This document shows positions 67 to 21,930 of a stretch of 41,174 nucleotides of DNA, piece after piece; position 1 is the first letter of the stretch, and every line of letters starts with the position of its first letter. Location of the stretch: assembly GCA_036001465.1 (NCBI GenBank), contig DASYUH010000002.1, positions 1 to 41,174 on the forward strand. Direction: 5' to 3'. A program made the position numbers and the translations under genes. The notes beneath the pieces are model-generated. The model made no database searches and had not been told where the DNA came from. It worked only from the letters and a program-made list of their open reading frames with translations. This DNA comes from Candidatus Polarisedimenticolia bacterium. GTDB lineage: Bacteria > Acidobacteriota > Polarisedimenticolia > Gp22-AA2.

Positions 67-1011
67 CTATCCCGGGAATTTCCGCGGCGGCGCCGGGGCC
101 GGCGATCCGTGCGGCGCCTGCGGGGCCTGCGGGAAGAGCCCGGCGCCGCGATCGTCGAGCCCCAGGATGTTGAGGAGGTTCGATCCCGAAGGGACGACGA
201 ACTTGGTCTGCTGCGCCAGGACCGCGCGCAGGACGTCGAGGCGCTGGCGAGCTTCGGCGCGGTCCTTGAAGAAGGTCTCGGCCGCCACGGACGTCACCTC
301 GATCGCCTTGGCCTCGGCGTTGGCCTGCAGGATGCGCGCCTGGGCCTCGCCGTCGGCCTTCAGGATCGACGACTGCTTGCTCCCCTCCGCCTGGAGGATC
401 TGCGACTGCTTCACCCCCTCCGCCTCCAGGATCTGGGCGCGCTTGTCCCGCTCGGCCTTCATCTGGCGCGACATCGCCTCGGTGATGTCGGCCGGCGGGT
501 CGATCTTCTGGACCTCGACGCGCGTCAGCTTCACGCCCCAGGTGTTGGTGGCCTCGTCCAGCACGTTGCGCAGGTTCGTGTTGATCGTGTCGCGCGCCGT
601 CAGGGTCTCGTCCAGGCTCTTGTCGCCGATGAGGTTCCGCAGGTTCGTCTGCGCCAGCGTGGTGGCGGCGTAGGCGAAGTTCTGGACCTCGAAGGTCGCC
701 TTCACCGGGTCGCTGATGCGGTAATAGATGACGGCGTCCACGGTCACTCCGACGTTGTCCTTGGTGATCACCTTCTGCGGCTCGACGTTGATGACCCGCT
801 CGCGCATGTCCACCTTGATCAGGCTCTCGATCATCGGCACGAGGAAGGTCAGCCCTGAGTCGACCGTGGTCCTGTACTTGCCGAGGCGCATGACCAGGCC
901 CTTCTCGTATTGCGACACGATGCGCGCCGAGCGCGCCACCATGATGAGGGCGATGAACAGGACGATCGACAGTGCGAAGAACCCCAGCGTTCCGAAGGGC
1001 AGCTCGTTCAT
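67..1011 (-). CDS. SPFH/Band 7 (stomatin/QmcA-like) membrane protein
   Basis: This 314-residue protein has an N-terminal membrane helix (about residues 8-28), then an SPFH/Band 7 domain beginning around [15 protein letters not shown] long Ala/Glu/Gln-rich coiled coil follows (about 180-245, with repeated ILQAEG/ILKADG units), and the tail is Pro-rich. SPFH proteins of this type form large oligomeric cages on the inner membrane and are linked to membrane microdomains and protease control. The gene starts 4 nt after the stop of the upstream nfeD-like gene. NfeD-stomatin pairing is a well-known conserved arrangement in which the NfeD OB-fold domain works with the SPFH oligomer. The length is normal for the family and the gene looks intact. 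The exact physiological role cannot be read from sequence. Confidence 0.93.
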
Positions 1012-10642: not shown

Positions 10643-13600
10643 ATGCTGCGTTTGTGTCTTGTAGGAACAGTCGCAATCCTGACTGCCGTCGTGCTCCCGA
10701 GCGGCCCGGTTTCGGTCGGTGGAAACCCGGAATCGATTCCCGCGAATGCCTGGTCCGACGAGGCATGGGCATCCATCTCCCAGGCTGAATACGACTTCAA
10801 GGCCCGACCCGACGGAGCCTGGACCGCCCCGAACCGCGCCCAGGGGCTCCGCCTGACGACGCGCGGTTCGGTCGCCCGGGTCACGCCCCGGACGGAGGGG
10901 GACGCGCCATGGGTCCTGAGTCTTGGGCTCAGAGGCGTGGGTCGCGAGGGGAGGATGACCGGGGTCCCGCCCGGTGCCGTACGGGCCGCCGGGAACCGGA
11001 TCGAGCATCGCCGTGACAGTCTGGGACTGACCGAATGGTACGTCAATCTGAGGACCGGCATCGAGCAGGGCTTCACCCTCGATCGCCGTCCGGCGGCGGC
11101 GGACACGGCCTCGCCTCTCGTCCTCGACCTCTTCTACGAAGGCGGCCTCGAGGCACGACAGGAGGAAGCCGGAGGCGCGGTCCTGTTCTCCCTGCCCTCA
11201 CCTGGGGCTGTCCATCGCACGGATATCCTGCGCTACGCGGACCTGGCGGTCGCCGACGCGGACGGCAAGCCGGTCGTGGCCGCGCTCGATCTGGCTCCCG
11301 GCTCCCTGCGGATCACGATTCAGGACGAAGGGCATCCGTATCCGCTGATCGTCGATCCGACCATCGTCGTGCCCGCCTGGACCGGGCGCGGGGATCAATT
11401 TGAAGAGCTGTTTGGAGCCTCGGTGGCGGGGGCCGGAGACGTCAATGGCGACGGCTACGACGATCTGATCGTCGGCGCGCCCCGCTTCGACGGCGGTTTC
11501 TTCGACGAGGGGCGCGCCTTCCTCTTCCTCGGGTCGCCGACCGGACCCTCGGCCGTCCCCGCCTGGACCATGAGCGGCGATCAGACAGGCTGCAGGTACG
11601 GAGGCGCCGTCGCCTCGGCGGGGGACGTCAACAACGACGGCTACGCCGACGTCATCGTCGGCGCCCCCAACTACGACTTCGTCCAGGTCGACGAGGGGCG
11701 CGCCTTCGTCTACCTCGGCTCGGCCGGCGGGCTGGGCACCGTGCCGGTCTGGATGGCCGAGCCGGATCAGAACCTGGCCGCGTTCGGGGCCGCCGTCGCC
11801 TCCGCGGGGGACTTGAACGGCGACGGCTACGACGACGTGATCGTCGGGGCGCCGCTCTTCGACTCTCCCTTCAACACGGACGAGGGGGCCGCCTTCGTCT
11901 ACCTCGGATCGGCCTCCGGGCCTTCTCCTTCCCCGGCCTGGGTCGAGGGGAGCGGCCTGTTCAATTCGGCCTTCGGGACCTCGGTCGCCTCCGCCGGCGA
12001 TGTGAACCGCGACGGCTTCGACGACGTGATCGTCGGTGCCCCGCTCTTCGACAACGCCGGCTTCTCCGATCAGGGGCGGGCCTACGTCTATCAGGGATCG
12101 GCCACGGGGCTGTCGCCGAACCCGGCATGGACCGCCGATGGCAGCAAGACCCTCGCGCGCTTCGGCTCTTCCGTGGCCTCCGCGGGCGACGTCAACTATG
12201 ACGGCTACGACGATGTGATCATCGGGGCCCCGATCTATGACTCGGGCCGGGCCTTCATCTATCACGGGTCGGCGACGGGCCTGAGCCTGACGCCCAACTG
12301 GAACAACAAGATCAACCTGTCGCCGGCCGAGTACGGCGCTTCGGTGGCGGGCGTGGGGGACCTCGACGGCGACGGCTTCGACGACGTCGTGGTCGGCGCC
12401 CCCAAGGTCGACGACCACACGACCACCTCGGTCGGTCTCATCAGGGCCTTCTACGGCGGCGCCATGGGGGCGGGCAACACCGCCGCCTTCAGCGCGCAGG
12501 AGACCCAGGCGGGGGCGCTGCTCGGCGGCGCCGTGGCGAGGGCGGGGGACGTGAACGGCGACGGCCTCGGCGACATCATTGCCGGCGCCACCGGCCTCGA
12601 CAACCCCGACCTGCAAGTATCCCTGGCGGGGGCCGCCCACCTGTACCTGGGCTTCCGGACGACCCCCTGCGTGCCGGCTCCCGAGCTCTGCAACCGCAGG
12701 GACGACGACTGCGACGGCGTCGTCGACGACAACCTGGGCACGACGACCTGCGGCACCGGCACCTGCTCGCGCACCGTCGACAATTGCGTCGACGGTTTCC
12801 CGCAGACCTGCACCCCCGGCGCCCCGGGCACCGAGACCTGCAACGGCCTCGACGACGACTGCGACGGGACGACCGACGAAGGCTTCGACGTCGATGGCGA
12901 CGGCTTCACCACGTGCGCGGGCGACTGCAACGACGGGGTGGCGTCGATCCATCCGGGCGCTCCCGAGGTCTGCAACGGCCTGGATGACAACTGCAACCAG
13001 GTCATTGATGAAGGAGGTCCCGACAGCGACGGGGACGGGATCCCGGACTGCCTCGATCCCGACGATGACAACGACCGGGTGCCCGACGGCACCGACTGCG
13101 CCCCGCTCGTCAACAGCGTCAGCGCCGTGCCGGGGGAGGTCGGGCAGACCGTGCGGGCCGTGCCCGGTCCACCTCAAGGCAGCTACACCTGGACGCCGAT
13201 CGTCCAGGCCAACGTCCACAACGTCTACCGCAGCGTCTGGGACCGCCGCAGTGGAAACTGGAACGACACGCTGGGCTGCCTGTATTCCGAGGCCATCGGA
13301 AACCGCTTCAGCGAAACCGCCAACCCTCCAGCCGGGTCGGCCTTCTACTACGTCATCACGGGCGTCAATCGCTGCGGCGAAGGCCCCGCCGGCTTCTCCA
13401 GCACCGGCCAGCCGCGCCTGATCCCCATACAGTGCGTGCACCTCGGGCTCGACACCGATGGCGACACGATCCAGGATTGGGATGACGACTGTCCGCTCGT
13501 GTCCAACGCGAGCCAGGCCGACGCCGATCTCGACGGCCGCGGCGACGCCTGCGACAACTGCGCCGCCACCGCGAACGCCGGCCAGGTGGACGCCGACACC

Positions 13601-14824
13601 AACGGGATCGGAGACGTCTGCCAGGACCTGGACCATGACGGCTACCTCGCCACCGTGGACTGCAACGACAACGATCCGATGGTTCACCCGGATGCCACCG
13701 AGACCTGCAACGCGCGCGACGACAACTGCGACGGCGCGACCGACGAGAACCTCGGGACGACGACCTGCGGCGTCGGGGTCTGCACGCGGACGGTGAACAA
13801 CTGCGTGGGCGGCGTGAGCCAGACCTGCACGCCCGGCACGCCGACCGCCGAGGTCTGCAACAACCTCGACGACGACTGCGACGGTTCGGTCGACGAGGGC
13901 ACCACGACCTGCGGCGTCGGGGCCTGCACGCGCACGGTCAACAGGTGCGCCGGCGGAGTCCCGCAGACCTGCACGCCCGGGACGCCGACGGCGGAGACGT
14001 GCAACGGCATCGACGACGACTGCGACGGGGCGACCGACGAGAACCTCGGCACGACGACGTGCGGCGTCGGGGCGTGCACGCGGACGGTGAACAACTGCGT
14101 GGGCGGCGTCATCCAGACCTGCACGCCCGGCGCGCCGACAGCGGAGACCTGCAACGGCATCGACGACGACTGCGACGGGGCGACGGATGAGAACCTCGGC
14201 ACGACGACGTGCGGCGTCGGGGCGTGCACGCGGACGGTGAACAACTGCGTGGGCGGCGTGAGCCAGACCTGCGCGCCCGGCGCGCCGACGGCGGAGACCT
14301 GCAACGGCATCGACGACGACTGCGACGGGGCGACCGACGAGAACCTCGGCACGACGACGTGCGGCGTCGGGGCGTGCACGCGGACGGTGAACAACTGCGT
14401 GGGCGGCGTGAGCCAGACCTGCACGCCCGGGACACCCGCAGCAGACGATGAAACGTGCAATGGCATCGACGAGGACTGCGACGGTTCGGTGGATGAAGAC
14501 TACGCTTCCGTGGAAACGACCTGCGGCGTGGGGGCCTGCGCCGCGACCGGGTTGACTTCCTGCGTGAACGGGTCGGTGGAGGACAGTTGCGTGCCAGGGA
14601 CGCCTACGGAAGAGATCTGCTCCGATGCGATCGACAACGATTGTGATGGCGAAATTGATGAAGGCTGCCCGATTTCGGTGGGCGGTGATGTCACGCGAGC
14701 GGGTTTCAGCCCTCAACGCTCCGAGCCGACCCCCTCCTTTCGCAGCAAGGATCCTGCTCGACCGGCCGATGGACGATCCACGACCCGAAATCCTTCCTGG
14801 ATGATGTTGTCCGCCGAAGGATAG
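10643..14824 (+). CDS. Secreted FG-GAP propeller protein with MopE/TSP3 repeat tail
   Basis: The 1393-residue protein begins with a signal peptide (MLRLCLVGTVAILTAVVL) and an N-terminal domain of about 210 residues ending in YPLIVDPTIVVP. Seven FG-GAP repeats follow (about 240-670), each with a calcium-loop motif such as DVNGDGYDDLIVGAP; seven blades form an integrin-alpha-like propeller. The tail has ten MopE-type CNxxDDDCDG motifs. They are interrupted by a TSP3-like stretch (DADLDGRGDACDNC) and an FnIII-like module (about 825-930) ending SAFYYVITGVNRCGEGP. The protein is rich in Asp and Cys, so calcium binding and disulphide-stabilised extracellular structure are likely. MopE itself binds copper, but the copper ligands cannot be verified here. 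No sorting signal or anchor is visible at the C-terminus. A shorter paralog follows directly. Confidence 0.9.
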   Translation: MLRLCLVGTVAILTAVVLPSGPVSVGGNPESIPANAWSDEAWASISQAEYDFKARPDGAWTAPNRAQGLRLTTRGSVARVTPRTEGDAPWVLSLGLRGVGREGRMTGVPPGAVRAAGNRIEHRRDSLGLTEWYVNLRTGIEQGFTLDRRPAAADTASPLVLDLFYEGGLEARQEEAGGAVLFSLPSPGAVHRTDILRYADLAVADADGKPVVAALDLAPGSLRITIQDEGHPYPLIVDPTIVVPAWTGRGDQFEELFGASVAGAGDVNGDGYDDLIVGAPRFDGGFFDEGRAFLFLGSPTGPSAVPAWTMSGDQTGCRYGGAVASAGDVNNDGYADVIVGAPNYDFVQVDEGRAFVYLGSAGGLGTVPVWMAEPDQNLAAFGAAVASAGDLNGDGYDDVIVGAPLFDSPFNTDEGAAFVYLGSASGPSPSPAWVEGSGLFNSAFGTSVASAGDVNRDGFDDVIVGAPLFDNAGFSDQGRAYVYQGSATGLSPNPAWTADGSKTLARFGSSVASAGDVNYDGYDDVIIGAPIYDSGRAFIYHGSATGLSLTPNWNNKINLSPAEYGASVAGVGDLDGDGFDDVVVGAPKVDDHTTTSVGLIRAFYGGAMGAGNTAAFSAQETQAGALLGGAVARAGDVNGDGLGDIIAGATGLDNPDLQVSLAGAAHLYLGFRTTPCVPAPELCNRRDDDCDGVVDDNLGTTTCGTGTCSRTVDNCVDGFPQTCTPGAPGTETCNGLDDDCDGTTDEGFDVDGDGFTTCAGDCNDGVASIHPGAPEVCNGLDDNCNQVIDEGGPDSDGDGIPDCLDPDDDNDRVPDGTDCAPLVNSVSAVPGEVGQTVRAVPGPPQGSYTWTPIVQANVHNVYRSVWDRRSGNWNDTLGCLYSEAIGNRFSETANPPAGSAFYYVITGVNRCGEGPAGFSSTGQPRLIPIQCVHLGLDTDGDTIQDWDDDCPLVSNASQADADLDGRGDACDNCAATANAGQVDADTNGIGDVCQDLDHDGYLATVDCNDNDPMVHPDATETCNARDDNCDGATDENLGTTTCGVGVCTRTVNNCVGGVSQTCTPGTPTAEVCNNLDDDCDGSVDEGTTTCGVGACTRTVNRCAGGVPQTCTPGTPTAETCNGIDDDCDGATDENLGTTTCGVGACTRTVNNCVGGVIQTCTPGAPTAETCNGIDDDCDGATDENLGTTTCGVGACTRTVNNCVGGVSQTCAPGAPTAETCNGIDDDCDGATDENLGTTTCGVGACTRTVNNCVGGVSQTCTPGTPAADDETCNGIDEDCDGSVDEDYASVETTCGVGACAATGLTSCVNGSVEDSCVPGTPTEEICSDAIDNDCDGEIDEGCPISVGGDVTRAGFSPQRSEPTPSFRSKDPARPADGRSTTRNPSWMMLSAEG
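13994..14443 (+). repeat. three tandem 150-bp MopE-type repeat units
   Basis: Units at 13994-14143, 14144-14293 and 14294-14443 are nearly identical in DNA, each coding 50 residues from ETCNGIDDDCDG to a PGxPxA end. More diverged versions flank them (from about 12690 and from 13700). The near identity at silent sites points to recent expansion by unequal recombination or slippage. The copy number may vary between strains and could be miscounted in an assembly. Confidence 0.88.
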
Positions 14825-14961: not shown

Positions 14962-17019
14962 ATGCTGCGTACATGCCTTGTGTGCACGGCCATGGGAGTC
15001 GGCGCACTGATGCTGGCGAGCCCGGCGATACCCAACGCAGGGCAAGGAGTGGCCTGCTCCTCCATGGACTGGACGCGCGAAGCAGCGCATGCGATCGCCA
15101 CAGCCGAATACGAGTTCTCTGCCGTGGATGGTGGCGGCTGGTCGGCTCCCAACCGGAGCCAGGGGCTCCGGCTGAAGGCAGACAGCTCGGGGATGCAGGT
15201 TTCTCCACGCCTGGCGGGGAGCACGCCGTGGTCACTCGGCTTCGAGCTGCAGGCCGTCGGACGCGAGGGTGCGATGACCCCGATCCTCCCCGGCACGGTG
15301 ACGGCCGCAGGCAACCGGACTGAAATTCGGCGCGAAGCACTCGGCCTGAGCGAGTGGTACGTCAATTTACGCAGCGGAATCGAGCAGGGATTCACGATCG
15401 ACCGGCGCCCATTGACGGGCGGGGGTGACTCTGCGTTGCTTCTGGACGTGGCCTTCGACGGCGGGCTCGAAGCGCGTCGGGACGAAACCGACGGCGCCGT
15501 CCTGTTCTCGGACGGTCCGTCCGGCGCCGTCCTGCGCTATGAGAACCTGGCGGTGGCCGACGCGGATGGGCACCCCGTAGTGGCCGAGCTGGCGCTCCTT
15601 CCGGGAATTCTGAGGATCGCCGTCCGGGACGCAGGGCATCCGTATCCGCTGGTGATCGATCCCACCATCATCGTCCCGGGCTGGACCGGGCTGGGTGACC
15701 AGTTCGAGGAGTTCTTCGGTGCCTCGGTCGCGGGCGCTGGCGATGTCAACGGAGATGGGTTCGACGACGTGATCGTCGGAGCCTACCGGTTCGACGGCGG
15801 CTTTTTCGACGAGGGAAGGGTCTTCGTCTTCACCGGCTCACCGACGGGGCCCTCACCCATTCCGGCATGGACCGCCGAAGGGCACCAGACAGGGGCGTGG
15901 TTCGGCTTTTCGGTCGCGACGGCGGGGGACGTGAACGGGGACGGCTACGCCGACGTCATCATCGGCGCCCGGTTGTTCGACAATCTCCAGGTGGACGAGG
16001 GGCGCGCGTATGTCTATCTCGGCTCCTCCGTGGGACTGGGGTCGGTGCCGGCATGGACCGGGGAGCCCGATCAGAACAGGGCGGCCTTCGGCTCCTCGGT
16101 TGCTTCGGCAGGGGACGTGAATGGCGACGGCTACGACGACGTCGTCGTCGGGGCGCCCGACTTTGACACGGCCTTCAACACCGACGAGGGTCGCGCCTTC
16201 CTGTACCTCGGTTCGGCCGCCGGTCCGTCCCTCTCTCCAAACTGGAGCGCGGGGAGCGGGCGATTCTCTTCCGCCTACGGGTTCTCCGTGGCTTCGGCCG
16301 GCGACGTCAACGGGGACGGGTATGGCGATGTCATCGTCGGAGCACCCCTCTTCGACAACGCTGGTTTCCCGGATGAAGGGCGCGTCTTCGTCTATGCCGG
16401 CTCGGCGGCCGGGCCCTCCCTCGAGCCGGTGTGGATCGCCGACGGCAACAAGGTGCTGGCCCAGTTTGGATATTCCGTGGCCGGGGCGGGGGATCTCAGC
16501 GGCGACGGCATCGGCGACGTGATCATCGGAGCGCCCTTCGATGGTTCCGGTCGGGTTCTCATTTTCTATGGGTCCACGACCGGGCTGAACCTGGTGTCCG
16601 GCTTCAACGCCAAGATCAACAAGAGCCCGGCCGAGTTCGGCGCCTCCGTGGCCGGCGTCGGCGACATCAACGGAGACGGCATCGGGGACGTCGCCATTGG
16701 CGCACCGCGTGTGGGCGACCAGACCACCCCAGCCGCCGGGATTGTCAGGGTTTACTATGGAAGCCGCATGGGCGTGGGGAATCCACCCGCCTTCGGCGTG
16801 ACGGAAACCCAGCCGAACGCGCTTCTCGGGGGATCGGTTTCAAGCGCCGGGGATGTCAACGGCGACGGTCTGGCCGACATCATTGCGGGTGCCAGCGGCC
16901 TGGACAATGTCCCGTTGCAGGCGGCGAGCTCGGGCGGGGCGCGCGTCTACATGGGATTTCGGACTCGGCAGACGGCGCTCTCCAACGGCGCCCTCCATGG
17001 CATTCGATTCACCGATTGA
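14962..17019 (+). CDS. Secreted FG-GAP propeller protein, short paralog
   Basis: The 685-residue protein has a signal peptide (MLRTCLVCTAMGVGALML), the same N-terminal domain as the preceding gene (SEWYVNLRSGIEQGFTIDRR; YPLVIDPTIIVP), and seven FG-GAP repeats with DxNGDG loops. It can be aligned with its neighbour almost residue for residue up to YxGFRT. There the neighbour continues into about 720 residues of MopE/TSP3 repeats, but this copy ends after 17 unrelated residues. The stop codon lies two bases before the left inverted repeat of an insertion sequence. Either the short form is original, or the tail was lost in a rearrangement involving the element. AGGAGG precedes the ATG. It is probably an extracellular calcium-binding propeller; the ligand is unknown. 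Confidence 0.9.
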   Translation: MLRTCLVCTAMGVGALMLASPAIPNAGQGVACSSMDWTREAAHAIATAEYEFSAVDGGGWSAPNRSQGLRLKADSSGMQVSPRLAGSTPWSLGFELQAVGREGAMTPILPGTVTAAGNRTEIRREALGLSEWYVNLRSGIEQGFTIDRRPLTGGGDSALLLDVAFDGGLEARRDETDGAVLFSDGPSGAVLRYENLAVADADGHPVVAELALLPGILRIAVRDAGHPYPLVIDPTIIVPGWTGLGDQFEEFFGASVAGAGDVNGDGFDDVIVGAYRFDGGFFDEGRVFVFTGSPTGPSPIPAWTAEGHQTGAWFGFSVATAGDVNGDGYADVIIGARLFDNLQVDEGRAYVYLGSSVGLGSVPAWTGEPDQNRAAFGSSVASAGDVNGDGYDDVVVGAPDFDTAFNTDEGRAFLYLGSAAGPSLSPNWSAGSGRFSSAYGFSVASAGDVNGDGYGDVIVGAPLFDNAGFPDEGRVFVYAGSAAGPSLEPVWIADGNKVLAQFGYSVAGAGDLSGDGIGDVIIGAPFDGSGRVLIFYGSTTGLNLVSGFNAKINKSPAEFGASVAGVGDINGDGIGDVAIGAPRVGDQTTPAAGIVRVYYGSRMGVGNPPAFGVTETQPNALLGGSVSSAGDVNGDGLADIIAGASGLDNVPLQAASSGGARVYMGFRTRQTALSNGALHGIRFTD

Positions 17020-17021
17020 CT

Positions 17022-17044
17022 TCATGGTGGTGCGGAGGTTGTTG
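17022..17044 (+). repeat. left terminal inverted repeat of the IS
   Basis: It begins TCATGGTGGTGCG and ends TTGTTG, with two mismatches to the right end (positions 14 and 17 of the repeat). It starts two bases after the stop codon of the short FG-GAP paralog. Confidence 0.82.
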
Positions 17045-17180
17045 CGACCGGGGCCGGACGGGATGTGCGGACGATGGCCGCAGGCGGTCGTCAGGGTCTT
17101 GGGCCGCGCCACGTAACCCTTTCAGATAGAAGAGTTGCGAATCTTCCCTGACGGGCACGCCGTTTGATGCTCCGGGGGGA

Positions 17181-18338
17181 GTGCACTGGCCTGGGACACC
17201 CGTCGAGCGTCTGCAACACTTCCGGCCGTCCTTCTGCCCTTGGCCCGAATGCTGCGACCATCGCCGGACCACACCGGACTACCATTTCCTGCGTCACGGC
17301 ACGTTCACGACGGAACGACGGACGGTGCCGCGATTTCGCTGCCGGGCCTGCCGTCGCACATTTTCGAAGCAGAGTTTCGGACTGTCGTATTACCTCAAGC
17401 GTCCCGAGCTGGTCATTCCCGTGGCCGCGGGGCTGCAGGCGGGCTCGGCGCACCGGCAGCTGGCGAGGAACCTGGGCTGCGCGCCGTCCACCGTCACCCG
17501 CCTGAGCGCCCGGCTTGGCAGGCATGCGATCCTGCTCATGGCGAGGGCTCTTGCGCACTTGCGGGGCGGGCTGACCGAGCCGGTCGTCCTCGACCACTTC
17601 GAGACTTTTGAGTTCACTCAGGACCTGCCGTTTGGCATCGCGACGCCGGTGGGGCGCGACTCGTGGTTCGTCTATGGACTGGACCCGGCGCCGCATGCGC
17701 GCGCCGGCCGGCGCTCGGCCGAGCAAGAGGCGCGCCGGGCGCGGCGGCCCTCACGGCTCCGGCGCGGCGGCTACGAGGAGTCGAGCACGCGCACCGTGCG
17801 CCTGCTCCTGGCGCTCTGCCCACGGAACCGGAGACTCCAGCTCGCGGGCGACGGCCACCCCGCCTACGACCGCGCGGTGCAGCGCATGGGCCATGAGGGA
17901 CGCGTGCGGCTGCAGCGCTTCCCCAACCCGCGCCGCGGCCCCAAGGGGTCGCCGCGCTCCCCTCAGGCGCGAGCCCGCGATCGGGCGATGTTCCCGGTTG
18001 ATGCCCTGCACGGGCTCATCCGCCACACCGCCGCCCATCATCGCCGCGAGACCATCGCCTTCGGCAGGCGCCTCAACGCCGTGATGGAACGCCTCTTCCT
18101 GACCGTGGTCTGGAGAAACTTCGTCAAGGGACGATCCGAGAGACGCCCCGACCCTGTCACGCCGGCCATGCGCCTCGGGCTCGCGGACGAACCGTGGATT
18201 TGGAGTCGCGCCCTGGCGCGCCGACTCTTCCCGGCCCGCGAAATGCTCCCGCAGGTCTGGCGCGACCTCTACAGAAGAGACTGGACCACCTCGGTCCTTC
18301 CCTCCAACGTCCGCCACCGCCTCTCCCACGCCTACTGA
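17181..18338 (+). CDS. IS1/IS1595-like transposase
   Basis: The 385-residue protein starts at a GTG directly after GGGGGGA. It has an N-terminal zinc-finger-like region with Cys19, Cys24/25, Cys54 and Cys57 (RFRCRACRRTFS). A helix-turn-helix follows at about 88-112 (HRQLARNLGCAPSTVTRL), then a probable DDE nuclease domain. Candidate catalytic residues are Asp138 (VVLDHFETF), Asp224 (AGDGHPAYD) and Glu290 or Glu303 in the helix before FLTVVWRNFVKG. This order (zinc ribbon, HTH, DDE with a short DG-x-Y motif) resembles IS1 and IS1595 transposases. The precise family is uncertain, and such proteins are often annotated only as hypothetical. The reading frame is intact and inverted repeats flank it, so the element may still be active. 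Confidence 0.8.
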   Translation: MHWPGTPVERLQHFRPSFCPWPECCDHRRTTPDYHFLRHGTFTTERRTVPRFRCRACRRTFSKQSFGLSYYLKRPELVIPVAAGLQAGSAHRQLARNLGCAPSTVTRLSARLGRHAILLMARALAHLRGGLTEPVVLDHFETFEFTQDLPFGIATPVGRDSWFVYGLDPAPHARAGRRSAEQEARRARRPSRLRRGGYEESSTRTVRLLLALCPRNRRLQLAGDGHPAYDRAVQRMGHEGRVRLQRFPNPRRGPKGSPRSPQARARDRAMFPVDALHGLIRHTAAHHRRETIAFGRRLNAVMERLFLTVVWRNFVKGRSERRPDPVTPAMRLGLADEPWIWSRALARRLFPAREMLPQVWRDLYRRDWTTSVLPSNVRHRLSHAY

Positions 18339-18421
18339 CGCTCAGAGTTCGCGTGGGCCGGCACCCTCCCGCACAAGATCCCGGACCGACGCTCGCGTGC
18401 CGTTCCCGCTACCTCTTGAAT

Positions 18422-18444
18422 CAACAAGCTGCGCACCACCATGA
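18422..18444 (-). repeat. right terminal inverted repeat of the IS
   Basis: This is the reverse complement of the left end with two mismatches. It ends 69 bp before the start of the amidohydrolase gene and directly abuts an extended -10 promoter motif. Confidence 0.82.
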
Positions 18445-18445
18445 G

Positions 18446-18454
18446 TGGTATGAT
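18446..18454 (+). promoter_or_regulatory. extended -10 promoter next to the IS end
   Basis: TGG-TATGAT is an extended -10 (TGn plus five of six -10 bases) lying one base outside the right end of the insertion sequence and 59 nt before the ATG at 18514. No good -35 is present, which extended -10 promoters tolerate. Any -35 contact would fall inside the inverted repeat, so the element may have contributed to this promoter. Confidence 0.4.
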
Positions 18455-18513
18455 CCGCGACTTCGATCCCCTGCTGAACGACTGGACCTGACCTCAATGC
18501 GAGGCATCCAACC

Positions 18514-21500
18514 ATGATCCGCTTGCGTCGCGCAACAACATGGACGTCTCTCCTGATCCTGCTGGCGCTCTGCCCCATGCTGGCCGGGCCCTCCCGCGGC
18601 GAAACGTCGGCGGAGGCGGAGCCGTCGTCCGGCGCGAAGCCGGACGCCAAGAAGCCGCCGAAGCTGGACGTCAACGCGGTCCCCGAGAACGCCCGCAAGG
18701 TGGAGTTCACGACCGACGAGGGGACCTGGATGAACGTGGACGTCGCGCCCGACGGCCGGACGATCCTGTTCGATCTCCTGGGCGACCTCTATCGCGTGGG
18801 GATTGGCGGGGGGAGGGCGGAGCGGATCACCTCCGGCCCGGCGTTCGACTACGCGGCGCGCTACGCCCCGGACGGCAGGATGATCGTGTTCTGCAGCGAC
18901 CGGGGCGGCACCATGAACCTGTGGCTGGCGAACGCCGACGGGTCGTCTCCGAGGGCGCTGACGGAGGAGAAGGACTCGGTGTTCTCGTCCCCTTCATGGA
19001 CCCCGGACGGGAGCTACGTCCTGGCGCGCCGCGAGGAGACCACGAAGGCGGGCATTCCGCCGGTCGAAATCTGGATGTACCACAAGGACGGCGGCAGCGG
19101 AGTCAAGGTGATCGCGAAGGACAAGATCGACACCTCGGCGGGGCCGGTGGCCAGTCCCGACGGTCGCTTCATCTACCTGACGGGACGGAAGGCGGACTAC
19201 TCGTACACGCCGAACATGACGAACGGTCTGTGGAACGTGTTTCGTCTGGACCGCACTACCGGCGAGCTGATCAGCCTGACGACGGCCCCCGACGGCGGGC
19301 TGAGGCCGACCCTGTCGCCCGACGGAAGGCACCTGGCGTACGCGAGGAGGCTGGACGCGCGGACCCAGCTCTACCTGCGGGACCTGGCGACCGGCGCGGA
19401 GAGGGTCCTGGCGCGGCAGCTGCCGCGCGACGACCAGGAGGCCTTCGCCCAGATGGACGTCCTGCCGGCGTCGGCCTTCACGCCAGACGGAAAATCGTTC
19501 GTCTACTGGAACGGCGGCAAGATCCACCGGCTCGACGTCGCCACCGGGAGCGACAGCGTCGTCCCGTTCACGGCCGACGTGTCCCTCGATCTGCGCCCGC
19601 TCTGGCGGGTCGACACGCCCGTGGGAGGATCCGACCTGGCCGTCAAGCTGTTGCGCTGGCCGACGCTGTCGCCGGACGGCCGGCTGCTGGCGTTCGACGC
19701 CCTCGGCAAGATCTGGATGTGCGACATCGGGAACGACGGCAAGGCCTCGAAGCCCCGCCGCCTGACGAAGGACTCCGTGCGGGAGTATGCCCCGGAATTC
19801 TCGCCCGACGGCAGGTTCATCGCCTACGTCACCTGGTCGGACGCCGGCCTGGGCCATGTCTGGAAGATTCGATCCGCCGGTGGCGCCCCGCAGCGCCTCA
19901 CCCGGAGCGCCGGGCACTACGTCAATCCCAGCTGGTCTCCGAAGGGGGACCGGATCGCCGTGGTCGCGGGCAGCGGCGCCGAGCTCCGGGCGCAGCAGCC
20001 CGAGTTCGATCCGTACTACGAGATCCGCTGGCTCCCCTCCGAGGCTCCGGCAGGCGGCGCCGAGCCTGCCGTGGTGACCACCGTCTCTCCGATGGACACG
20101 GTCCGCTTCCATCCGGTCCCGGCGTTCGGCCCGGACGGCACGCGGATCTTCTACGCGGAGCAGGTGCCGCCTTCGGAGCCGGGCGGCGACGCCAAGGTGG
20201 ACCTGGTCTCGGTCCGGCTCGACGGCACCGACAAGAAGCAGCACCTGCGGTTCGTCCAGGCCGAGGACGCCGTGCCGTCCCCGGACGGCGCCTGGGTCGC
20301 CTACGTCAGCCGGGACGACGTGTACGTGGCGGCCATGCCCCGCGCCGGGAAGGACCCGGTGGAGATCGGCGGCGAGAAGTCCGCGGTCCCCGTCTACCGC
20401 CTGAGCACGGAAGGGGGTGGCTACGTCGGCTGGGCCGACTCGGGAGCCACGGTGGTCTGGGGCATGGGAAACACGATCTACCGCCAGCGCCTCGATCGAT
20501 TGCGCGAAGCGACCCTGAAGAAGGCGCTGGCCGACAAGGCCAAGGAGAAGGCCGCGGAGGACGCCGGGAAGAAGCCGGACGCGGAGAAGGGGGACGGGGA
20601 CAAGGCGATGGGGGAGAAGGAGGCCGGGTCCGACCTCCCGAAGCCGGAGGCGATTCCGGTCTCGCTGGTCGTGCCGAAGCCGCGGCCCAGGGGGTCGGTC
20701 GTCCTGAAGAACGCGCGCGCCGTCACCATGAAGGGGGACGAGGTGATCCAGCGGGCGGACATCGTGGTCCAGGGGAACCGCATCGCGGCGATCGGTCCTG
20801 CCGGCTCGATTGCGGTGCCGGCCGGCGCCGCCGTCATCGACCTGGGAGGCAAGACCGTCATACCGGGCCTGGTCGACGTCCACGCCCACCTGCACTACTC
20901 CTCGTTCGAGATCTTTCCCGACAAGAAGTGGGAATACGTCACGAACCTGGCCTACGGAGTCACGACGACCCACGACCCTTCGGCGCACAGCCTGGACGTG
21001 TTTGCGCAGGCGGAGCTGGTCGAGGCCGGCGAGATGATCGGCCCCCGCATCTACAGCACCGGCGACGTGCTGTACGGCGGGGTGACCGCCTCGGTCTACG
21101 CCAAGGTCGACAGCCTGGAGGACGCGTTGCACACCGTCCGCCGGATGAAGACGTACGGGGCGCACTGGCTGAAGGTCTACCAGCAGCCGCGCCGCGAGCA
21201 GCGCATCTGGTTCATCGAGGCGGCGCGCCAGGAGGGGATCGGCGCGACCATGGAGGGGGCCGGCGAGCTGCACACGGACCTGACCAACATCCTCGACGGC
21301 TACACCGGCCTGGAACATTCACTGCCGGTCCATCTCTACAAGGACGTGGTCACGCTGGTGGCGCGATCCGGAACGAACTATACGCCCACGCTGCTCGTAT
21401 CCTATGGGGGACCGACCGCGGAGGCCTACTGGTACCAGCACGCCAACCCGCACGACGACGAGAGGCTGCGCCGCTTCACCCCGCATGAGATGCTCGACGG

Positions 21501-21930
21501 GCTCGGAAGGCGCCGCATCTGGTACCCGGAAGAGGACTTCCATTTTCCGACGGTGGCCAGCGGGGCGGCGCGCATCGCGCGCGCCGGCGGCCGGGTCGCA
21601 CTCGGCGCGCATGGCCAGCTCCAGGGTCTCGGCGCCCACTGGGAGATGTGGGGCTTCACGATCGGCAACGCCATGACGCCGATGGAGGCACTGCGCACCG
21701 CCACGTGGAGCGGCGCCGAGGCGCTCGGGTTCGGCAAGGACCTCGGCTCCCTCGAGGCCGGCAAGCTCGCCGACCTCGTGGTGATCGACGGCGACCCGCT
21801 GGCCGACATCCGCCAGTCCCAGAAGGTCCCGTTCACCATGAAGGACGGCGTCCTCTACGACGCCTCCACCATGGATGAGGTCTGGCCGGAGAAGAAGCCG
21901 CTCGGCCCTTTCTTCTGGCAGAGGCCCTAG
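18514..21930 (+). CDS. Exported TolB-propeller amidohydrolase
   Basis: The 1138-residue protein has a signal peptide (hydrophobic core about residues 11-24) and a charged linker. Its first ~660 residues form a WD40-like/TolB beta-propeller with repeated xxxPDGRxIxF motifs. A Lys/Glu-rich spacer (about 665-715) follows. An amidohydrolase domain (about 725-1130) has the metal motif VDVHAHLH and the C-terminal GxLEAGKLADLVVIDGDPL signature. Such fusions occur in many bacteria and are annotated as periplasmic amidohydrolases or imidazolonepropionase-like enzymes. Peptides or cyclic amides are possible substrates, but none is established. It begins a run of three closely spaced genes on this strand. 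GAGG lies nine bases before the ATG. Confidence 0.92.
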   Translation: MIRLRRATTWTSLLILLALCPMLAGPSRGETSAEAEPSSGAKPDAKKPPKLDVNAVPENARKVEFTTDEGTWMNVDVAPDGRTILFDLLGDLYRVGIGGGRAERITSGPAFDYAARYAPDGRMIVFCSDRGGTMNLWLANADGSSPRALTEEKDSVFSSPSWTPDGSYVLARREETTKAGIPPVEIWMYHKDGGSGVKVIAKDKIDTSAGPVASPDGRFIYLTGRKADYSYTPNMTNGLWNVFRLDRTTGELISLTTAPDGGLRPTLSPDGRHLAYARRLDARTQLYLRDLATGAERVLARQLPRDDQEAFAQMDVLPASAFTPDGKSFVYWNGGKIHRLDVATGSDSVVPFTADVSLDLRPLWRVDTPVGGSDLAVKLLRWPTLSPDGRLLAFDALGKIWMCDIGNDGKASKPRRLTKDSVREYAPEFSPDGRFIAYVTWSDAGLGHVWKIRSAGGAPQRLTRSAGHYVNPSWSPKGDRIAVVAGSGAELRAQQPEFDPYYEIRWLPSEAPAGGAEPAVVTTVSPMDTVRFHPVPAFGPDGTRIFYAEQVPPSEPGGDAKVDLVSVRLDGTDKKQHLRFVQAEDAVPSPDGAWVAYVSRDDVYVAAMPRAGKDPVEIGGEKSAVPVYRLSTEGGGYVGWADSGATVVWGMGNTIYRQRLDRLREATLKKALADKAKEKAAEDAGKKPDAEKGDGDKAMGEKEAGSDLPKPEAIPVSLVVPKPRPRGSVVLKNARAVTMKGDEVIQRADIVVQGNRIAAIGPAGSIAVPAGAAVIDLGGKTVIPGLVDVHAHLHYSSFEIFPDKKWEYVTNLAYGVTTTHDPSAHSLDVFAQAELVEAGEMIGPRIYSTGDVLYGGVTASVYAKVDSLEDALHTVRRMKTYGAHWLKVYQQPRREQRIWFIEAARQEGIGATMEGAGELHTDLTNILDGYTGLEHSLPVHLYKDVVTLVARSGTNYTPTLLVSYGGPTAEAYWYQHANPHDDERLRRFTPHEMLDGLGRRRIWYPEEDFHFPTVASGAARIARAGGRVALGAHGQLQGLGAHWEMWGFTIGNAMTPMEALRTATWSGAEALGFGKDLGSLEAGKLADLVVIDGDPLADIRQSQKVPFTMKDGVLYDASTMDEVWPEKKPLGPFFWQRP

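Follow-up and report, generated by a model that had tools for sequence, protein, structure and literature searches.

IS1 of E. coli (IS1A, with InsA and InsAB') is distinguished by an N-terminal zinc finger followed by a helix-turn-helix (HTH), an Asp-Asp-Glu triad and a programmed frameshift in the gene pair insA/insB'. IS1 has a protein of 232 aa and makes an 8- or 9-bp target duplication (PMC12428005). Single-ORF IS1-type proteins of about 290-370 aa occur in Deinococcus, Acaryochloris, Meiothermus and Gloeothece plasmids, and several of them are annotated 'IS1 family transposase'. The transposases of IS1595 and ISL3 likewise carry an N-terminal zinc domain and an HTH; according to PMC8101967, IS1595 elements usually make 8-bp duplications.

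Here we describe an insertion sequence (IS) from a stretch of 41,174 nucleotides, called the window throughout, which is contig C2 of a 4.58-Mb genome in 114 contigs. The element shares with E. coli IS1 the zinc finger, the HTH and the DDE order, and with the single-ORF IS1-type proteins the zinc ribbon, the HTH, a core of two aspartates and a third residue, a TPAMxxGL tail and the single reading frame. However, its transposase has 385 aa, is encoded without a frameshift, and has Asp as third residue, where the single-ORF IS1-type proteins have Glu (8/8). The spacing differs as well: in the IS1-type protein L141, the first two aspartates are separated by 61 residues and the second Asp and the Glu by 86, compared to 86 and 50 (Asp224 to Asp274) in the window. 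The element's group makes 9-bp duplications, in contrast to the 8 bp of IS1595, and no full-length match to the NCBIfam IS1595 model was obtained.

A preliminary description, made from the letters alone, had proposed a complete IS of about 1.4 kb with 21/23 inverted repeats at 17022-18444. This stretch was confirmed as a complete single-gene insertion sequence. The 23-nt arms (17022-17044 and 18422-18444) were recovered with 91% complementarity (21/23) and 1377 nt between them, and they enclose one intact ORF. The limits had to be shifted by one base on each side, to 17023-18443, because the relatives that carry duplications end in 5'-CAnnGTG. The corrected element starts with 5'-CATGGTGG, and its parts are as follows.

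17023..18443, + strand: insertion sequence, 1421 bp, ends 5'-CATGGTGGTGC; limits taken from the 9-bp duplications of relatives
17023..17046, + strand: left terminal inverted repeat, 24 nt, 20/24 alike
18420..18443, - strand: right terminal inverted repeat, paired with the left one
17181..18338, + strand: transposase, 385 aa, GTG start, the only long ORF that fits inside the arms

The GTG start is supported by the relatives, whose proteins share the initial M-x-W-P motif. A search for a sigma-70-type promoter in 16990-18560 found none.

The earlier suggestion to look for the 23-bp ends in the rest of the genome proved productive. A degenerate 23-nt pattern with up to 3 mismatches gave 9 matches in the genome versus 0 for the reversed control, indicating that the ends of the window element are no chance match and that other elements have the same ends. 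The transposase itself gave 12 matches in this genome, mostly fragments that lie at contig ends; the closest full-length match besides the element itself had 50% identity. Taken together, the end family is therefore multi-copy, and the subtype in the window is single-copy. A MITE-like miniature element of 133 bp (L020:1390-1522, contig C53), bounded on both sides by ends of this group, was also found in the same genome; the inner 18 nt of its ends are 16/18 alike, and it has neither a transposase nor a 9-bp duplication.

The size of the target duplication was read from a core set (A1) of 24 elements, namely that in the window and 23 relatives at 44-72% identity; nine outer members were left out of this count. 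Paired ends with the motif CnnnGTG were present in 22 of the 24, while L037 and L070 lacked paired ends with enough flank. An exact 9-bp identity of the flanks was found in 4/22 (L030, cacgcgctc; L034, gaatcagtc; L063, cattccgtc; L068, aaaaaaagg), a match of 8/9 in two (L038, L065) and of 7/9 in one (L035). When left and right flanks were mismatched (462 pairs), none reached 8/9 or better, and when lengths of 4 to 13 were compared in the true pairs, exact duplications appeared at 9 bp alone. Four exact and two 8/9 matches, against 0/462, indicate that this type of element makes 9-bp duplications and ends at 17023 and 18443. Thus, as had been anticipated, other copies fixed both the termini (CAnnGTG) and the duplication size, and the length agrees with the 8- or 9-bp duplication of the IS1 family.

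The window copy itself is flanked by GATTGACTT and AGTGGTATG, which are identical at 3/9 positions, so it has no duplication. The preliminary description was correct on this absence, but not in calling it unusual, since 15 of the 22 paired-end core elements, the window copy included, match at 5/9 or less. The other 14, all with good paired ends, are L002, L027-L029, L032, L033, L036, L041, L064, L066, L069 and L071-L073.

The domains and residues of the transposase were assessed in a 33-row alignment (A2) of the 24 core and nine outer relatives.

17235..17351, + strand: zinc ribbon, C19-x4-C24 ... C54-x2-C57, conserved in 33/33, 33/33, 33/33 and 32/33 rows of A2
17424..17507, + strand: HTH, residues 82-109; Pfam HTH_38 at E 0.0017, below its cut-off; helices 75-86, 91-98 and 102-127 in the model
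17571..18185, + strand: predicted RNase H-like catalytic core, residues 131-335, the range aligned with integrase cores
17592..17594, + strand: Asp138, first catalytic residue, 33/33, where the first core strand begins
17850..17852, + strand: Asp224, second catalytic residue, 33/33, directly after strand 219-223 (DSSP)
18000..18002, + strand: Asp274, proposed as the third catalytic residue, within helix 261-283; Asp in 24/24 core, Asn in 9/9 outer members
18048..18050, + strand: Glu290, an earlier candidate for the third residue, rejected; Arg in 6/33

Both the zinc ribbon and, despite its score below the cut-off, the HTH of the preliminary description are supported. In a model computed with AlphaFold2 on A2 (pLDDT 89.8, pTM 0.90), the core has an RNase H-like fold and two aspartates lie on its first and fourth strands, as in DDE/RNase H-like transposases, which bears out the suggested DDE-like core. 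The structure that VIA-align placed first is the ISCth4 transposase (6xg8, 6xgx; Z 12.1, rmsd 5.0-7.3 over 224-251 residues), yet this closest solved structure shares only 11-12% identity. Retroviral integrases make up most of what follows (Z 9-11.4), the majority aligned over about 145 residues with an rmsd of about 3.3, and residues 57..203 of HIV-1 integrase align onto 131..335 of the model. A Foldseek search of the model against the PDB gave no hit at E<=0.001. Sequence searches of the PDB with the single protein and with the profile found nothing significant, and the plasmid and phage collections, queried with the window protein, contained no match at E<=0.01.

The transposase had been described as poorly classified, and this holds: no Pfam or NCBIfam model passes its cut-off. 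Searches of Pfam, NCBIfam and PHROGs with the window protein gave partial matches below threshold only, the nearest being HTH_38, ISL3 and the IS1/IS1595 zinc domain. The window protein scored E 0.11 and 12.4 bits with the NCBIfam IS1 model, below the cut-off of 100 bits. Among eight members scanned singly the best IS1 score was 47.1 bits, and the strongest were outer relatives; single-ORF IS1-type controls also stayed below this cut-off (67.1 and 63.1 bits).

The relation to IS1 became apparent at the level of profiles. E. coli InsB alone reached only 6.4% against the family profile, which is not significant, so a wider IS1-type set was needed. It was found when a plasmid-borne Deinococcus IS1 transposase surfaced via an outer relative and led to further single-ORF IS1-type proteins, which come from Acaryochloris, Meiothermus, Deinococcus, Gloeothece, Thiodictyon and Hoeflea. 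With nine such proteins (A5, including L145 from the window's own genome), hhalign aligned the family profile end to end over residues 14-357 (99.87%, E 8.4e-32). With five of them (A4), E was 6e-19 for A2 and 2.8e-15 for A1. In a single BLASTP comparison, the window protein matched an Acaryochloris relative at E 5e-8. In addition, a 24-residue motif of InsB parallels INHTNARLRHFLARLRRRSWCVSK of the outer relatives. L145 (L145:1447-2409, contig C40) is a different, IS1-type transposase of 320 aa in which the canonical Glu (IERAN) and a TPGMGSGITDHVWT tail are both present.

A divergent member of ISL3, IS1595 or IS256 would be another way to classify the element. ISL3 (NF033550) is the best NCBIfam match of the window protein below threshold (E 0.0041, 16.3 bits, cut-off 180), and this model reaches 24/33 members of A2 (best 4.3e-7); the top structure, ISCth4, is that of an IS256-family element. 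However, among the NCBIfam models compared, the ISL3 match of the window protein is confined to residues 46-117, and the IS1 model is stronger across members (27/33 at E<=1, best 1.5e-13). The IS1595 model gave no match to the window protein at E<=10, and genome-wide it matched only another locus, below cut-off. The IS1-type proteins, in contrast, match from one end to the other, with the TPAM..GL..W tail included, and a place in ISL3, IS1595 or IS256 is improbable. We therefore regard the element as IS1-related, a remote cousin of E. coli IS1. Three points keep it from being filed as an IS1 member, namely the missing Glu, the absence of a frameshifted gene pair and a model score below the cut-off; single-ORF proteins annotated as IS1 exist as well. 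In kind it is an ordinary DDE insertion sequence, and its lineage is one that the family models used do not name.

The departure from the IS1-family triad lies in the third residue. The preliminary description had named Asp138 and Asp224 together with Glu290 or Glu303. The two aspartates hold, being invariant throughout A2, and neither glutamate does. Glu303 is Glu in only 11/24 core relatives. In favour of Glu290, it is invariant in the 24 core members and sits just after the helix of Asp274. Across A2, however, it is Glu in 27/33 and Arg in 6/33, and both two-sequence and profile alignments (BLASTP, hhalign, MAFFT) place D274 (FPVDALH), not E290, on the Glu of the IS1-type proteins (VERFN), which makes Glu290 a rather unlikely third residue. 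The IS1-type Glu in this column, which in view of its invariance (9/9; 8/8 in the tree set) we take to be the catalytic one, leads us to propose that Asp274 acts as the third catalytic residue at the column of the IS1 Glu.

A tree was calculated from 27 rows, comprising 19/33 of A2 and eight IS1-type proteins (L142, a near copy of L141, was omitted), with the third-residue column removed. The eight Glu proteins stand apart from the other 19 (100/98), the Asn proteins form early branches, and the Asp proteins are nested (91/95). On this tree the third residue changed twice, which is the minimum; the root and the branch to Asp, which is not starred, are the weak points. The Asn-bearing elements look mobile, judging from an Asn-type element with a 9/9 duplication (L005, its boundary less certain than in the core) and another with a 25/25 inverted repeat (L044). 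R281 and H282 are invariant in 33/33 rows of A2, and the IS1-type protein L141 has Arg at the position of H282. It is conceivable, and we suggest it only tentatively, that in this lineage of Acidobacteriota the IS1-type Glu changed to Asn and was later re-acidified to Asp while the enzymes stayed mobile throughout; the Asn enzymes would then use two acidic residues and another ligand, for which His282 is a candidate. The unusual natural series of Glu, Asn and Asp, all on a single tree, offers a ready-made test of how far a DDE transposase depends on the acid at the third position.

The surroundings of the element were compared with congeneric genomes; all genomes used are draft assemblies, many of them titled as MAGs.

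14962..17019, + strand: left neighbour, an FG-GAP repeat protein that can be aligned up to its final residue in two congeners (G004, G001)
18444..18513, no strand: rest of the interval right of the element, without the VTT-domain gene that two congeners have here
18514..21930, + strand: right neighbour, PD40 propeller/amidohydrolase protein; the same gene follows in G004 and G001

The left neighbour is not truncated, as its C-terminus aligns to the last residue in both congeners. It is the second of two tandem paralogous FG-GAP repeat proteins (10643-14824 and 14962-17019), and the genome encodes further homologues at other loci. In the first protein of the pair, Cys-rich units are repeated over a long C-terminal part.

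The interval between the FG-GAP and amidohydrolase genes measures about 0.63 and 0.69 kb in G004 and G001, compared to 73 bp in the window when the element is excluded. In both congeners an ORF of about 200 aa lies there in antisense orientation; its product has a VTT domain (Pfam VTT_dom, above the cut-off) and is a membrane protein of the DedA type. The element sits exactly at the position of this gene: homology to the congeners ends at its left end and resumes within about 10 bases of its right end. The window's genome, searched for the VTT gene, has no close copy (best 31% and 28%), while a third genome of the family carries an orthologue (56%). The locus is a clear, well-bracketed example of a gene lost at an IS that has no target duplication.

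IS events of this kind have been recorded in the long-term experiment with E. coli. There, 14/83 IS events were linked to deletions, all of them IS150 and all (14/14) without duplication, and 69/69 non-deletion events had one (PMC11708052). An IS-linked deletion of the VTT gene is the best and simplest reading of the missing duplication in the window, and we consider it likely. The zinc ribbon and HTH of the single transposase would bind the CAnnGTG-ended inverted repeats, as their domain types suggest. Asp138, Asp224 and Asp274 in the RNase H-like core would then cut the ends and join them to staggered target cuts, which the duplications of the relatives place 9 bp apart. Loss of the neighbouring VTT-domain gene would be the work of the element or its copy. 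The simplest routes are an intramolecular adjacent deletion and recombination between two copies on either side of the gene, and either would leave a single element without a target duplication. All in all, it is quite probable that the element is an autonomous DDE-type IS of a lineage-restricted IS1-related group, acting in this manner, with removal of the VTT gene at this locus.

The absence of a duplication need not reflect a deletion, since it is shared by 15/22 elements. The VTT gene may have been lost earlier in an unrelated event, with the IS inserting later into a short intergenic space and its 9-bp duplication decaying. Such an order of events is possible because the congener G003 also lacks the gene, and the frequent lack of recognisable duplications, in the window copy among others, fits it. 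However, the arrangement in G003 is a different one, since the left neighbour is absent there, the upstream region differs and no IS end is present; the window element occupies the exact site of the VTT gene in G004 and G001, and its ends are still 20/24 alike and its ORF intact, yet the flanks agree at only 3/9. We therefore hold an earlier loss to be unlikely.

A somewhat better case, still a minority one, can be made for two element copies that flanked the VTT gene and recombined, so that one copy remained with outer flanks from different insertions. The genome is rich in related copies (the 12 protein matches), and such recombination is a recognised cause of missing duplications (PMC11708052). 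It would, however, need two insertions within about 0.6 kb, and no close second full-length copy survives beside the 50% match. A chimeric assembly, in which a repeated element joined unrelated flanks, might be suspected in a draft genome where many related copies stop at contig ends, but in G004 and G001 the two neighbours are these same genes, arranged and oriented alike, and the subtype in the window has no close second copy in its genome, so that we give this explanation hardly any credence. An IS-linked deletion remains our preferred reading of the locus.

The family is nearly confined to one class of Acidobacteriota, Polarisedimenticolia. At E<=1e-10 the A1 profile matched 28/41 genomes of this class and 1/355 other genomes of the phylum (29/396 overall); the sole match outside the class (G277) covers positions 19-160 of the profile only. 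With the A2 profile at E<=0.001, 31/41 genomes of the class were matched. A scan of contigs from 84,980 species found 7 relatives, titled Acidobacteria, Candidatus Polarisedimenticola svalbardensis or 'bacterium'. In the open-licence literature searched we found no account of insertion sequences of Polarisedimenticolia. Ends, duplication length and catalytic residues are now given for an IS group that is present in most searched genomes of one Acidobacteriota class and that the family models used do not name.

An outer IS group was also observed in the same family of bacteria (L074-L077, L047, L005). Its proteins have 30-31% identity to the window protein and Asn as third residue, and most of the elements have the ends GAAAATGCCCGAC. 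Among five GAAAATGCC-ended outer elements, a duplication was seen in L005 only.
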